Below are positions 28,315 to 37,317 of a DNA stretch of 64,000 bases, in pieces; position 1 is the first letter of the stretch; each line of letters starts with the position of its first letter. The translations under genes and the position numbers were made by a program. Source of the stretch: Halomarina ordinaria (lineage in GTDB: Archaea; Halobacteriota; Halobacteria; Halobacteriales; Haloarculaceae); assembly GCF_030553305.1 (NCBI RefSeq), contig NZ_JARRAH010000001.1, positions 2,480,001-2,544,000 of the forward strand, in the 5' to 3' direction. A model generated the notes under the pieces. That model saw only the letters and a list, made by a program, of their open reading frames with translations. It searched no databases and was not told the DNA's origin.

Positions 28315-29550
28315 CTACTCCCGACCCGTCGTTCCGACCAGCAGCCGGTAGCTCCCCCGCTCCGTCCCGTCGTCGTGGTAGACGACGGGTTCCTCGACCG
28401 CGGCGAACGCGTCGCCGTCGAGTCCGACCGCCGTGACGACACCGTCGGTTTCGAGGCTCGTCACGGCACCGCTGGCCGTCTCGAAGAGCCGCAGACCGTG
28501 GCCGTCCGCGTCGCGCGTCCGGAAGTGCTGTGCGCCCGGCACCGCGACGCGGGTGCCACAGCCGCCGAGTTCTCCCGCGAAGCCGCCGACCGCGGCCGTC
28601 CAGACGCGCTCGCCGTCGGGGGCGTAGCCGAAGGCGGTGTGCTCGCGGGGGTGCAGCGACCGGGTCTCGCGGCCGTCCGTCGAGTAGGTGTTCCCGGTGA
28701 CCAACACCACGCCGTCGGGCGTCGCGCGGACGTGGTTCGGGTAGGCGTACAGCGTCTCGCCGTCGACACGCTGCGGGCGGGCCAGGTCGACGCGCCACCG
28801 CTCGGCGCCGCCGTCGTCGAGGCGGTACCCCCGGTAGTCGCCGTGGGAGGCGACGACGACCCCACCATCGACCAGCGAGACGTCGCCGACGCGTCGCTGT
28901 CCGTCGGTTCCGGGGTCCCAGTCGTAGCGCACCGCGCCCGTCTCGCCGTCGAGGACGACGAGCCCCTTCTGGTGCGCCCCGGGACAGCGGTTGTACGCTA
29001 CCGCGACGAGGCGGCCGTCGGCGTCCAGCCCGATGGGGGAGGCGTCAGCCTCGTACGTCCAGACGACGTCGCCCCCGCCGTCGACGGCGTAGACGACGCC
29101 CGTGAACGAGCGGTGCTCGCCGTCGCGCTCGTACCGCCGCGCCGCGACGTAGAGGCGGTCCTCGTCGCTCCGGACGTCGACGACGAAGGGGAGGAAGAAC
29201 CGGGAGGGTTTCTGTGGCGGTCCGACGTCCGTCGCGGTGGCGTACCGCCACCGGAGCGCGCCGGTGTCGGCGTCGTGGAATCGGACGGTCCCCTGGGGAC
29301 CGCGCTCGCCGACCGCGACGCCGTCGCCGAACGGTTCGACCGAGACGGCGGCCGTCCGCTCGGTGTCCGCCCCGGCCCGCCAGCGCTCGTCGAGCGTGGG
29401 TCGGTCGAGCGCGACCACGTCGCCGTCGGCGGTCCCGACGACGACCGCGTCGTCGACCAGCGCGACGCACGACCGGCGACCCGCGTGGCGGGTCCGCGCC
29501 GGCGTCACCGTGCCGAGGTCGACCGTCCGGGGGACAGGCGCGCTACTCAT
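28315..29550 (-). CDS. PQQ-like beta-propeller protein, last gene of the cbi operon
   Basis: A 411-residue repeat protein without a signal peptide. Repeated units such as VVGTADGDVVALDRPTLDERW, GTVRFHDADTGALRWRYAT, GVVYAVDGGGDVVWTYEAD, KGLVVLDGETGAVRYDWDP and YRLDDGGAERWRVDL mark a beta-propeller of the PQQ/WD type. Catalytic PQQ residues are not recognisable, so it may be a scaffold or sensor. It is the final gene of the operon, overlapping the DUF3209 gene by eight bases, which links it to B12 metabolism. The reaction is unknown. Confidence 0.78.
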   Translation of the reverse strand: MSSAPVPRTVDLGTVTPARTRHAGRRSCVALVDDAVVVGTADGDVVALDRPTLDERWRAGADTERTAAVSVEPFGDGVAVGERGPQGTVRFHDADTGALRWRYATATDVGPPQKPSRFFLPFVVDVRSDEDRLYVAARRYERDGEHRSFTGVVYAVDGGGDVVWTYEADASPIGLDADGRLVAVAYNRCPGAHQKGLVVLDGETGAVRYDWDPGTDGQRRVGDVSLVDGGVVVASHGDYRGYRLDDGGAERWRVDLARPQRVDGETLYAYPNHVRATPDGVVLVTGNTYSTDGRETRSLHPREHTAFGYAPDGERVWTAAVGGFAGELGGCGTRVAVPGAQHFRTRDADGHGLRLFETASGAVTSLETDGVVTAVGLDGDAFAAVEEPVVYHDDGTERGSYRLLVGTTGRE

Positions 29551-29914
29551 CGACGGGGAACGTCTCGTGGAGGACGTCGTGTGCCTCCCCCAGCCCCCCG
29601 AGGACGCTCTCGCCCTGGTCGGCCAGTCGGCCGACGGCGCGCTCGGCGTCGCGGACGGCCACCAGCCGCCCGCGCAGGTAGTCGTACGCCGGGTCGTCGT
29701 CGTCGGTCGCGGCCACCGTCGACTCGAGGTCGACGAGCGCCGCGTCGAGGTGCCGCCGGAGGTCCGAGAGCGTCGTCGCGTTCGCCAGGGCCTCGACGGG
29801 ACCGTCGAGGTGTCCCTCCAGTTCCCGTTCGGCGTGTTCGCGCGCGCTCCGGTCGTCGGTTCCGAGGACGTTCATCAGTCCGAGTCGTAGTGCTTCGAGT
29901 TCGTAACAGCTCAT
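29543..29914 (-). CDS. DUF3209 protein in the cobalamin operon
   Basis: A 123-residue, all-helical acidic protein: MSCYELEALRLGLMNVLGT, then VEALANATTLSDLRRHLDAAL and GESVLGGLGEAHDVLHETFP. I recognise the DUF3209 family, which occurs in haloarchaeal and some bacterial cobalamin clusters next to CbiX. Its stop overlaps the beta-propeller start and its start overlaps the CbiX stop (TAATG), so it is strictly co-translated. The function is unknown; it is a candidate for a missing B12 step or for assisting CbiX. Confidence 0.83.
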   Translation of the reverse strand: MSCYELEALRLGLMNVLGTDDRSAREHAERELEGHLDGPVEALANATTLSDLRRHLDAALVDLESTVAATDDDDPAYDYLRGRLVAVRDAERAVGRLADQGESVLGGLGEAHDVLHETFPVDE

Positions 29915-31152
29915 TAGAGTATCTGGTCGACGATGTCCGAGACGATTCGGTCCCGTTCGAGGTGGGACGAGACGATTCGCTCCGCGTCGGTCGGGTCGAC
30001 GCCGCCGTACCAGACGCCGTCGGGGTAGACAGCGACCATGGGACCGTCGCCGCAGCGGCCGAGACACGACGAGCGCGTGATGCGGGCGTCGCAGGCGTCG
30101 GAGTCGCGCGCCGCCTGGCGCACCCGTTCGAGGACGGCCGGCGCGCCGTCGGCCGCGCAGGTCCGGTTCGTGCAGACCGCGACGTGGCTCGCCGGCGCGT
30201 CGTGCGCGTGGGGGTCGTCGGCCACGTCGTCGCGGTCGGCGTGGGCGTCGCGGTGCGTCAGCGCCCGGAGCATCGCCCGCGCACCGCCGACGTCCCCCTC
30301 GTAGCCGTCGAGGCCGACCTTGTACTTGCAGGTGTCACAGGACATCTCGACGCTCCCGGTTCGAGCCTCCTGCCAGCGGTCGCCGAGGACCGCCAGCAGT
30401 CGGTCGTCGGTCCCGAGCGGGTCGGCGGCGGCCGCGTCGACGTACGGGTAGTCGTCGTCGAACTCGGCGGCGCCGTCGCGGATACGACCCGTGAGGACGC
30501 CGTCGCCGAGCATGTACGGGAGGACGACGACGGCGTCCGGGCGGTGTCTGGCCACCGCGTGGAGGGTCTCGCGGAGACGTGGGTCGGTGACGCCGACGAA
30601 CGACGCCTCGACGCGGTCGAAGGCCCGCCCCTCGTACAGCAGTCGGGCGAGTTTGTGGACGTCGCCGTTCGCGTCCGGGTCGCTGGAGCCGCGCGCGCAG
30701 AGGACGACCGCGACGTCGTCCGCCTCGCGGTCGACGCCCAGTGCCGCCTCGACGGCCGACGCTCGGTCGTCGAGCAGGTCGACGAGCGCGGGGTGGACGC
30801 CGAGGTGGGCGCCGTTGTGTATCGTGAGCCCGGGGTGGTCGCGTCTCGCCCGTCCGACCGCGAGGGGGACGTCGTTCTTGACGTGGCTCGCGGCGAACAG
30901 CGAGAGGTGGACGACGCTGACGCGCGAGGCGCTCGACGCCAGACCGTCGATGGCGTCGGCTATCGACGGGGTCGCGAGTTCGAGGAAGCCCGCGTCGACC
31001 GGGACGCCCAGTCGCCCCTCCAGGTCGGCGGCGAGGGTGCGGACCTGTTCGTTCGACTGCTCGCGGCGCGAGCCGTGGCCGACGAGGAGTACCGCCTCGT
31101 CGTCGAGTTCGGCTTGCGTGACCGTCGCGTCCGGGGGCGCGTTCGCGGTCAT
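29914..31152 (-). CDS. cbiX: Sirohydrochlorin cobaltochelatase CbiX with C-terminal ferredoxin domain
   Basis: Inserts cobalt into sirohydrochlorin, the early (anaerobic) route. The 412-residue protein has two CbiX domains. The first shows AVLLVGHGSRREQSNEQV (metal-binding His) and VHLSLFAASHVKNDVPLA; the second shows VAVVLCARGSSDPDANGDV and VVVLPYMLGDGVLTGRI. A SCDTCKYK motif follows, then a thioredoxin-like [2Fe-2S] domain with CTNRTC, SDACDARITRSSCLGRCGDG and YPDGVWYGGV. An Asp/His-rich segment (THRDAHADRDDVADDPHAHD) may bind metal. It overlaps both neighbours by a few bases. Confidence 0.93.
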   Translation of the reverse strand: MTANAPPDATVTQAELDDEAVLLVGHGSRREQSNEQVRTLAADLEGRLGVPVDAGFLELATPSIADAIDGLASSASRVSVVHLSLFAASHVKNDVPLAVGRARRDHPGLTIHNGAHLGVHPALVDLLDDRASAVEAALGVDREADDVAVVLCARGSSDPDANGDVHKLARLLYEGRAFDRVEASFVGVTDPRLRETLHAVARHRPDAVVVLPYMLGDGVLTGRIRDGAAEFDDDYPYVDAAAADPLGTDDRLLAVLGDRWQEARTGSVEMSCDTCKYKVGLDGYEGDVGGARAMLRALTHRDAHADRDDVADDPHAHDAPASHVAVCTNRTCAADGAPAVLERVRQAARDSDACDARITRSSCLGRCGDGPMVAVYPDGVWYGGVDPTDAERIVSSHLERDRIVSDIVDQIL

Positions 31153-31865
31153 CGCGAGAGGTCGCCCACCCCACGGCCGGTCGCGCGCTCGACGCTCCGG
31201 CGGAGTTTCCGCCGTCGCTCGGCCGAGTACAGCCCGGAGTCGTCGCTCCCCGCGTACACCCACCGCGCGAACGCCGCGACGTCCGCGTCCTCGGCCAGCC
31301 CGAACCAGTACCCCCCCGAGGAAGTCGCGGAGAGGTCGTCGGTCGGTGCGTGGGGGTCGGCCGCGGCGAGGAGCGACCGGACCGTCCGGAGCAGGGCCTC
31401 GTCGTCGTGGACGAACGACACCCCGACCGACCCCGACGACTCCCGGAAGCAGACGGTACCGCACGCTTCGAGCACCCCGCGAACCAGTTGTGGGCGGTCG
31501 TCGGCGAACGCGTCGAACCGATAGCCCCCCGGGTGCCCGTCGACCGGGAGGCCGAGGGCGGCGCCGGCGCGGTCGGCCGGCGCGCCGACCACCCGGAGTT
31601 CGAACTCGTCCTCGAACCGGACGACCGAGGCGTCGTGTGACGACTCCCGCGGGGCGACCCGGTGGTCGTGGTCGGCCCGGTCGGTCCCGGCGACGGCCGC
31701 CAGCGCGTCCGCCGCCGTCTCGTCGCCCGTCCGCACGGTCACGCACTCGCGCGTCAGTTCGCCGTCGCCGGCGACGCGCCCCCAGAAGTACGCCGTCCCG
31801 GGCGTCGCCGCGAGCAGGTCGTCGGCCGGGGCCGGCGTCGCGGCCCCGCGCTCGGCGTCACTCAT
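31149..31865 (-). CDS. LAGLIDADG-like protein inside the cobalamin operon
   Basis: A 238-residue protein whose second half reads like a LAGLIDADG DNA-binding domain: GGYRFDAFADDRPQLVRGVLEACGTV, then SGSVGVSFVHDDEALLRTVRSLL, GYWFGLAEDADVAAFARWVY and a lysine/arginine tail RRRKLRRSVERA. The N-terminal half has a similar lead, YFWGRVAGDGELTRECVTVRTGD. The catalytic acids of active homing endonucleases are not convincingly retained. It is coupled by four-base overlaps to cbiX, so it is not a free intein or intron product. It may be a repurposed DNA-binding regulator (as in WhiA) or a B12 enzyme of unknown type. Confidence 0.65.
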   Translation of the reverse strand: MSDAERGAATPAPADDLLAATPGTAYFWGRVAGDGELTRECVTVRTGDETAADALAAVAGTDRADHDHRVAPRESSHDASVVRFEDEFELRVVGAPADRAGAALGLPVDGHPGGYRFDAFADDRPQLVRGVLEACGTVCFRESSGSVGVSFVHDDEALLRTVRSLLAAADPHAPTDDLSATSSGGYWFGLAEDADVAAFARWVYAGSDDSGLYSAERRRKLRRSVERATGRGVGDLSR

Positions 31866-32109
31866 CGTCCTCCTCTCGCTGCACGTCGATGGCGTCGAGC
31901 GGACAGGCGCGGGCGGCCTGTCTGGCGTCGGCCAGTCGGTCGTCCGCGAAGGCGACGACGAGTTCGCCGTCCTCGTCGCGCACCCGCCGACCGCCGTCGA
32001 CCGTCGCCAGGCCGCCCGCCGCCTCGACGAAGCGGTCGTCCCGCACGAGGCAGGCGAAGACGCCGTCACAGGCGCGCCTGTCGAGGCGAACGCGGTACTC
32101 AGTAGTCAT
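31858..32109 (-). CDS. Small ferredoxin (single Fe-S cluster)
   Basis: An 83-residue protein starting MTTEYRVRLDRRACDGVFAC with Cys14 and Cys20, a central basic/acidic stretch, and ARACPLDAIDV near the C-terminus (Cys about 69). Three cysteines in this layout fit a [3Fe-4S] or incomplete [4Fe-4S] ferredoxin. It lies between cbiH2 and the LAGLIDADG-like gene with short overlaps on both sides. A reductive step of corrin synthesis (for example, ring contraction or cobalt reduction) is a plausible partner reaction. Confidence 0.8.
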   Translation of the reverse strand: MTTEYRVRLDRRACDGVFACLVRDDRFVEAAGGLATVDGGRRVRDEDGELVVAFADDRLADARQAARACPLDAIDVQREEDDE

Positions 32110-33091
32110 ACTTGGACTCGTAGCCCCGCGGCGTCACCATCCGGCCGTCCCAGACGTACGTCTCCTCGTTGCCGACGATGATAGTCGTGGTCATGTCCAC
32201 GAGCTCCGTCTCGCCGAGCGCTTCCAGCTCCCGGAGTTCGACGACCTCGACCCGTTCGTCGTCGCGCCCCGCGCCGTGGACGACTCCCACGGGGGTCTCG
32301 GGCGCGCGGTGTTCGAGGAGTATCTCGCAGCACGTCCGGAAGTTCTCCCGGCGCTTGCGGCTCCAGGGGTTGTAGATGGCGACGGTGAACCCCTCAGACG
32401 CGACCGCGTGCAGGCGCGACTCGATGGTCGCCATCGACGTCAGGTGGTCCGACAGCGAGATGCTGACGGTGTCGTTCACGAGCGGCGCGCCCAGGCGCGC
32501 GCCGCAGGACTGGGCGGCCGGCACGCCCGGGACCACCTCGAAGTCGACGGCCTCCGCGCTCGCACCCTTCGACTCGAGTATCTCGAGGGTCAGCCCGGCC
32601 AGCGCGTAGACGTTCGGGTCGCCGCTCCCGACGATGGCGACGTCGTGGCCGGCGAGCGCGCGGTCGACCGCCTCCTCCGTGCGCGACACCTCGCCGCACA
32701 TCGGCGTGTCGTACAGTTCCTCGGCGGACTCCGTGACCTCCTCCGGCAGGAGGTCGACGTACGTCGTGTAGCCGACGACGTGCTCCGCCTCCAGGAGCGC
32801 CCCGCGGGCGCGCTGGGTCATCCCCTCCGGCTGTCCCGGTCCGAGGCCGACCGCGACGAGTCGTCCGGGGTCGGCGTCGAAGTCGGCGACTGTCGAGCCG
32901 ACTCGCTCGTCGGTCGCCGCCTTCTTCGACCCGCAGCGCGACCCGGACGACGAGGTGGACCCGCCGCAGGCGGACGTGCCCTCGTCGGCGTCCGTCGCGG
33001 TGTCGGTCGCGTCCGCGTTCGCGGCGTCGCTCGCGCCGCAACTGGTCTCGGTGTCTGTGCTCGTCTCGGTGGTGGTGTCGTCGGTGCTCAT
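32099..33091 (-). CDS. cbiH: Precorrin-3B C17-methyltransferase (CbiH/CobJ), Cys-rich N-terminus
   Basis: A 330-residue SAM-dependent ring-contraction methylase. The core starts at about residue 77 with RLVAVGLGPGQPEGMTQRARGAL and contains VAIVGSGDPNVYALAGLTLE and VPGVPAAQSCGARLGAPLVNDTVSISLSD. It has a Thr/Asp/Ala-rich N-terminal extension of about 75 residues with several cysteines (CGAS, ACGGS, SRCGSKK), unusual for the family and possibly a metal or Fe-S site. A paralogue lies upstream (33094-33993), so one may have diverged. It ends a few bases into the ferredoxin gene. Confidence 0.92.
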   Translation of the reverse strand: MSTDDTTTETSTDTETSCGASDAANADATDTATDADEGTSACGGSTSSSGSRCGSKKAATDERVGSTVADFDADPGRLVAVGLGPGQPEGMTQRARGALLEAEHVVGYTTYVDLLPEEVTESAEELYDTPMCGEVSRTEEAVDRALAGHDVAIVGSGDPNVYALAGLTLEILESKGASAEAVDFEVVPGVPAAQSCGARLGAPLVNDTVSISLSDHLTSMATIESRLHAVASEGFTVAIYNPWSRKRRENFRTCCEILLEHRAPETPVGVVHGAGRDDERVEVVELRELEALGETELVDMTTTIIVGNEETYVWDGRMVTPRGYESKYDY

Positions 33092-37272: not shown

Positions 37273-37317
37273 TAAAACAATTTTGGTTGTTTTAGAAAAA
37301 GCTCACTTGGGGAAGTG
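37273..37317. promoter_or_regulatory. Operator region upstream of cbiT
   Basis: Two inverted repeats lie here, just before the eleven-gene cbi operon. TAAAACAA-TTTTGG-TTGTTTTA (37273-37294) has perfect 8-base arms. CACTT-GGGG-AAGTG (37304-37317) is a perfect 5-base-arm repeat. TTTTGGTTGTTTTAGAAAA supplies a TATA-like element for the minus-strand cbiT. A COG1497-type wHTH regulator is encoded divergently at 37396 and is an obvious candidate to bind. Confidence 0.6.

Follow-up and report, generated by a model that had tools for sequence, protein, structure and literature searches.

A homing-endonuclease fold probably turned into a vitamin B12 helper protein: the LAGLIDADG-fold gene of the haloarchaeal cobalamin operon

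The cob cluster of Halomarina ordinaria lies in the 64,000-nucleotide stretch of DNA that was analysed (the window) and consists of cbiT, cbiL, cbiF, cbiG, cbiH1, cbiH2, a Fer4_15 ferredoxin gene, the gene considered here, cbiX, a DUF3209 gene and a gene encoding a PQQ-type propeller. The gene (31149..31865, minus strand, with its ATG at 31865) encodes a 238-amino acid protein that is of the HVO_B0055 type by position and is recognized from its open reading frame, a fold model and class-wide homologues. CbiH2, a TP_methylase (32099..33091, minus strand), is encoded immediately upstream of the small ferredoxin (31858..32109, minus strand). The ferredoxin gene shares 8 bases (31858-31865) with our gene, which in turn shares 4 bases (31149-31152) with the open reading frame of the CbiX cobaltochelatase (29914..31152, minus strand), whose product contains an MSCDTC motif and a C-terminal thioredoxin-like [2Fe-2S] domain. 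A conserved palindromic element, TAAAACAACCAAAATTGTTTT, precedes cbiT (37274..37294, minus strand). Both overlaps had been described in a first-pass annotation, which took the gene for a true operon member without an intron or intein, and all of this stands: the gene is free-standing, its neighbours are intact, and its slot is kept across the fetched haloarchaeal loci beyond local chance. The order cbiT-L-F-G-H1-H2-fdx-GENE-cbiX-DUF3209-PQQ is nearly invariant in those loci, the ones from Haloferax included. Among 80 loci fetched, 74/77 have a ferredoxin overlap of 4, 8 or 10 bases and 70/77 a cbiX overlap of 1, 4 or 8 bases, although these counts are biased towards overlaps, as the start closest to a coupled start was picked for each locus. 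Several homologues are annotated "cobalamin biosynthesis protein" in RefSeq.

Two observations on the neighbourhood may be recorded here. The DUF3209 protein (29543..29914, minus strand) has an all-helical model (pLDDT 95) and conserved His and Glu residues that may form a metal site; it is a relative of T. thermophilus TTHB059 (PDB 2ehw, E 4.8e-14), and in a Leptospira B12 cluster DUF3209 follows CbiX, ahead of an FAD oxidoreductase and CbiD. A plasmid of Haloarcula rara carries two cbiH1-cbiH2-fdx-gene-cbiX-DUF3209-PQQ blocks (L076, L077), with no cbiT-L-F-G in the flanks that were read.

What kind of protein occupies this slot? Searched with the window protein alone, Pfam and NCBIfam gave no match, and comparison with the sequences of PDB chains turned up chance matches only. 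Of 22 homologues, 11 match Pfam LAGLIDADG_3, the best at E 2.7e-5; the Halomarina ordinaria copy itself does not. In a 30-sequence set, the family profile matches haloarchaeal intein endonucleases (E 1.5e-5), the two motifs being in line with theirs, and hhalign of the family against intein endonucleases gives E 1.3e-4 at a probability of 54%. The AlphaFold2 model, built from a 22-homologue alignment (pLDDT 87.1, pTM 0.87), has the two-repeat alpha-beta-beta-alpha-beta-beta-alpha saddle fold. In a Foldseek search of the PDB, the first 18 matches are all LAGLIDADG endonucleases, inteins, a maturase or WhiA (best E 7.7e-6), the bI3 maturase being a strong fold match, and VIA-align gives Z scores of 13.8 for PI-PfuI, 13.5 for I-Tsp061I and I-DmoI, and 12.2 and 10.5 for WhiA. 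The LAGLIDADG-like fold claimed from the sequence is therefore borne out by the model, Foldseek, VIA-align, Pfam LAGLIDADG_3 and the intein-endonuclease profile alike. The check proposed with that claim, structure prediction and comparison with LAGLIDADG proteins and WhiA, matched both, and because the structure and profile matches are to LAGLIDADG proteins an unrelated fold is ruled out.

The two motifs that give the fold its name are degenerate. Motif 1, FWGRVAGDG (residues 27-35; 31761..31787, minus strand), retains Asp34 in the catalytic place, which holds Asp in 44, Ser in 8, Asn in 6, Gly in 4 and Glu in 1 of 63 non-redundant homologues (less than 85% identity). Motif 2, LVRGVLEACG (residues 127-136; 31458..31487, minus strand), has Cys135 in the place of the catalytic acid, and an acid is found there in 0/63 homologues (Cys in 62, Ala in 1). 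When the family is aligned with intein endonucleases, YFWGRVAGDG lies opposite YLLGLVFGDG, and LVRGVLEACG lies opposite either FLRGLMDADG or FLRGLYDADG of those enzymes. The first-pass view that active-site acids are lacking is correct for motif 2 but not for motif 1. Since the second catalytic acid is missing from all 63 homologues, the two-site cleavage of known enzymes would not be expected, and DNA cleavage appears from the sequences to have been lost. Four residues past Cys135 is Cys139 (31449..31451, minus strand), identified in alignment and model; it is invariant (63/63), as are Ser150, His77, Ser182, Phe188, Arg217 and Lys220. A hairpin of the second repeat, SSGGYWFG (residues 182-189; 31299..31322, minus strand), is also conserved, as seen in the model and the alignment. 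Strand alternation in LAGLIDADG enzymes tells which residues face DNA, and this pattern would place Cys139 and Ser150 on the concave side, where DNA was once bound. The protein belongs to the LAGLIDADG fold superfamily, and is neither an active homing endonuclease nor WhiA.

The gene is distributed as part of the corrin pathway. It is present in 145 of 292 sampled Halobacteria genomes, and a named genome collection yielded 148 candidate homologue places. Across 247 genomes sampled from the whole phylum, 21/21 matches fall within the window's own order and no homologues were found outside the Halobacteria. CbiG, taken as the mark of de novo corrin synthesis, is present in 150/292 Halobacteria genomes, including 145/145 of those that bear the gene; the gene occurs in none that lack CbiG (Fisher p 1.6e-78, a statistic that ignores phylogeny). 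In G044 there is a divergent homologue of 198 amino acids (L141:8826-9422, minus strand), on another contig than the cob cluster of that genome (L140). The proposal of a WhiA-style domestication, made before any of these comparisons, is upheld by the degenerate active site together with class-wide co-inheritance with corrin synthesis. Domestication of a homing-endonuclease fold is well supported, and we regard the fold and its domestication, taken together, as very probable. The origin was probably a monomeric LAGLIDADG endonuclease of the archaeal intein or intron type.

Only five of the 150 CbiG genomes are without the gene (G043, G045, G060, G294 and G094), and their clusters are informative. 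The clusters of the first four (L135-L138) are without the ferredoxin, the LAGLIDADG gene, DUF3209 and the propeller, and their cbiX, which directly follows cbiH2, encodes a His-rich C-terminal tail. Together they make up one branch of a deep split in the cob-cluster tree, in which the cluster of G044 is sister to the gene-bearing side and G094 represents a secondary loss. In G094 (L139), a second, His-tailed CbiX occupies the slot of the gene between the ferredoxin and cbiX, so that this locus has both tail types, [2Fe-2S] and His-rich. Gene-bearing loci readable to the end of cbiX have the [2Fe-2S] tail except L068, where the gene and a His-tailed CbiX occur together, so that neither strictly shuts out the other. 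The link of the gene to the tail type rests on one deep cob-cluster split and one secondary loss. The type of CbiX tail, [2Fe-2S] or His-rich, mostly tracks the deep split of haloarchaeal cob clusters. A haem-copper oxidase is encoded in 85/85 gene-bearing genomes checked and is missing from three of the five gene-lacking ones, G043, G045 and G060 (Fisher p 8.5e-5), which suggests an anaerobic life for these three, although confounded with phylogeny. A link of the gene to oxygen was set aside, the pattern being essentially one deep split, with G294 and G094 oxidase-positive.

Could the protein be a regulator, as the first-pass annotation suggested? A WhiA-like regulator of the cob operon would be a dead endonuclease that has kept its binding to a DNA site and governs transcription of the cob genes; the neighbouring Fe-S ferredoxin might serve as its sensor. 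LAGLIDADG is a DNA-binding fold, WhiA is among the best structural matches, and WhiA acts with WhiB, a parallel for the gene product and the ferredoxin, which adjoins the gene in nearly all syntenic loci. Nor does acidity speak against it: the 26 K+R and 40 D+E residues of the protein are no worse than those of haloarchaeal intein endonuclease domains (29/38 and 30/41), and because these real endonucleases are equally acidic, net charge says nothing on DNA binding. There is also a strongly conserved operator. Of the palindromes pointed out in the first-pass annotation, one strong conserved element was found, that before cbiT, and no other conserved one. The palindrome, TAnnnCAAnCAnAATTGTTTT, is present in 67/70 haloarchaeal cob clusters, but these include the gene-lacking clusters L135-L138, and it occurs once in the Halomarina ordinaria genome. 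As gene-lacking clusters conserve it too, its binder is probably some other protein, and it is probably the operator of a different, putative cob regulator. Furthermore, the gene product is without the HTH domain that is the DNA-binding part of WhiA (PMC3781837). No C-terminal HTH was found in the protein or its model, both of which stop after the second repeat, with a last helix at residues 215-229 of 238. A mid-operon place among enzymes with overlapping genes fits an accessory better, and the regulator role is unlikely.

A second possibility is that the gene encodes the enzyme missing at one of the two gaps in the haloarchaeal pathway, as a non-orthologous replacement of CbiD (EC 2.1.1.195) or CbiJ (EC 1.3.1.106). 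Neither CbiD nor CbiJ was found above cut-off in the 292 Halobacteria genomes, whereas the gene is present in 145 of the 150 that have CbiG, and an active site could be built from its invariant Cys, His and Ser residues. We know of no precedent, however, for SAM or NAD(P)H binding by the LAGLIDADG fold. Both gaps were already published, in agreement with our searches, in PMC8305020, PMC3403918 and PMC6719526. PMC8305020 lists HVO_B0055 of Haloferax volcanii as "function unassigned" and proposes four unassigned cluster genes, this one included, as fillers of the two gaps. The five genomes with a cob cluster but no gene still have no CbiD or CbiJ, and the clusters of G043, G045, G060 and G294 are without all four unassigned genes. 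As the gene-lacking genomes share both gaps, the gene is unlikely to replace CbiD or CbiJ, provided that their pathway works, and we consider this role rather improbable. The gap fillers should therefore be sought among genes common to all clusters, CbiH1 first: it is present in all gene-lacking clusters and is a better candidate for the methylation, and it is also flagged in PMC8305020.

A maturase-like, RNA-binding factor would bind cob mRNA and control the translation or stability of the overlapping genes. LAGLIDADG maturases exist, that of bI3 matches strongly in fold, and the gene overlaps are conserved, but the operon contains no intron and nothing specific favours this role, which is very unlikely. 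That the gene is a still-mobile, free-standing homing endonuclease sitting in the operon by chance is scarcely credible, even with Asp34 kept in 44/63 homologues and many related inteins in haloarchaea, given the motif-2 acid missing in 63/63, one slot held throughout a whole class, the strict co-occurrence with CbiG and a pattern of presence and absence that is not that of a mobile insert.

The remaining association of the gene is with the chelatase step: it overlaps cbiX and the ferredoxin gene, it accompanies the [2Fe-2S]-tailed CbiX, and one genome has a His-tailed CbiX in its place. For this reason we propose that the protein acts not as a nuclease but as an accessory in cobalt insertion or the early corrin pathway, a reading to which we give a probability of roughly 0.4. 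The features behind it are the LAGLIDADG fold, the loss of the motif-2 acid, the fixed cob-operon slot and the strict co-occurrence with CbiG, and of the earlier suggestions a "structural factor for B12 synthesis" comes closest. The complex, the ligand and the pathway step are what we infer as follows. Coupled translation would produce the protein alongside the ferredoxin and the CbiX cobaltochelatase, and its old DNA-binding saddle, with Cys135, Cys139 and other invariant residues, would hold either a protein partner (CbiX or the ferredoxin) or a smaller one (cobalt or a corrinoid intermediate). It could in this way stand in for the cobalt-storing His-rich CbiX tail of the gene-lacking clusters. 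The tail of B. megaterium CbiX-L has a 4Fe-4S centre and a His-rich region for which metal storage and delivery were proposed, and the MSCDTC motif of the window CbiX fits the MXCXXC motif reported in the same paper (PMC7689651). More tentatively, Cys135, in the former catalytic-acid place, and Cys139 might be ligands of cobalt, of an Fe-S cluster or of a corrinoid, in which case the saddle would have become a metabolic site. Against the accessory role, binding to a fixed DNA site could also explain why residues of the concave face are conserved, and the divergent copy in G044 sits outside the cob cluster.

How does the protein compare with known members of its superfamily? Like WhiA (DUF199) of Gram-positive bacteria, it is a single-chain, two-repeat LAGLIDADG protein with a degenerate active site, domesticated and vertically conserved. 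Unlike WhiA, it has no C-terminal HTH, is archaeal, is encoded in a vitamin B12 operon and has an invariant Cys pair in its second repeat. It resembles I-DmoI, I-Tsp061I, PI-PfuI and the haloarchaeal intein endonucleases in fold, both motif positions, length and repeat spacing, but unlike archaeal LAGLIDADG and intein endonucleases it is a fixed operon gene without an intron or intein and has no second catalytic acid. The HO endonuclease of yeast is a domesticated LAGLIDADG element (PMC7282813) that still cuts DNA, unlike what is expected of a protein without that acid. HVO_B0055 lies in the same cob-cluster slot, between cbiX1 (B0054) and B0056/cbiH2, and is on account of this position presumably the orthologue of the window gene.

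Of the four genes in the haloarchaeal cobalamin cluster that lack an assignment, one can now be given a fold; in its passages on HVO_B0055, PMC8305020 makes the gap-filler proposal and no LAGLIDADG assignment. The gene-lacking genomes bear on that published CbiD/CbiJ proposal, and their clusters argue against it. Domesticated LAGLIDADG proteins that have become fixed as cellular genes are few (WhiA, HO). The haloarchaeal protein would add a case from the archaea and from cofactor biosynthesis, in which a catalytic acid has given way to a near-invariant cysteine (62/63), and in which the fold of a selfish element probably came to serve B12 synthesis as a helper protein. If Cys135 and Cys139 do form such a site, it would be an instance of the LAGLIDADG fold serving metal insertion or corrin chemistry rather than nucleic acid.
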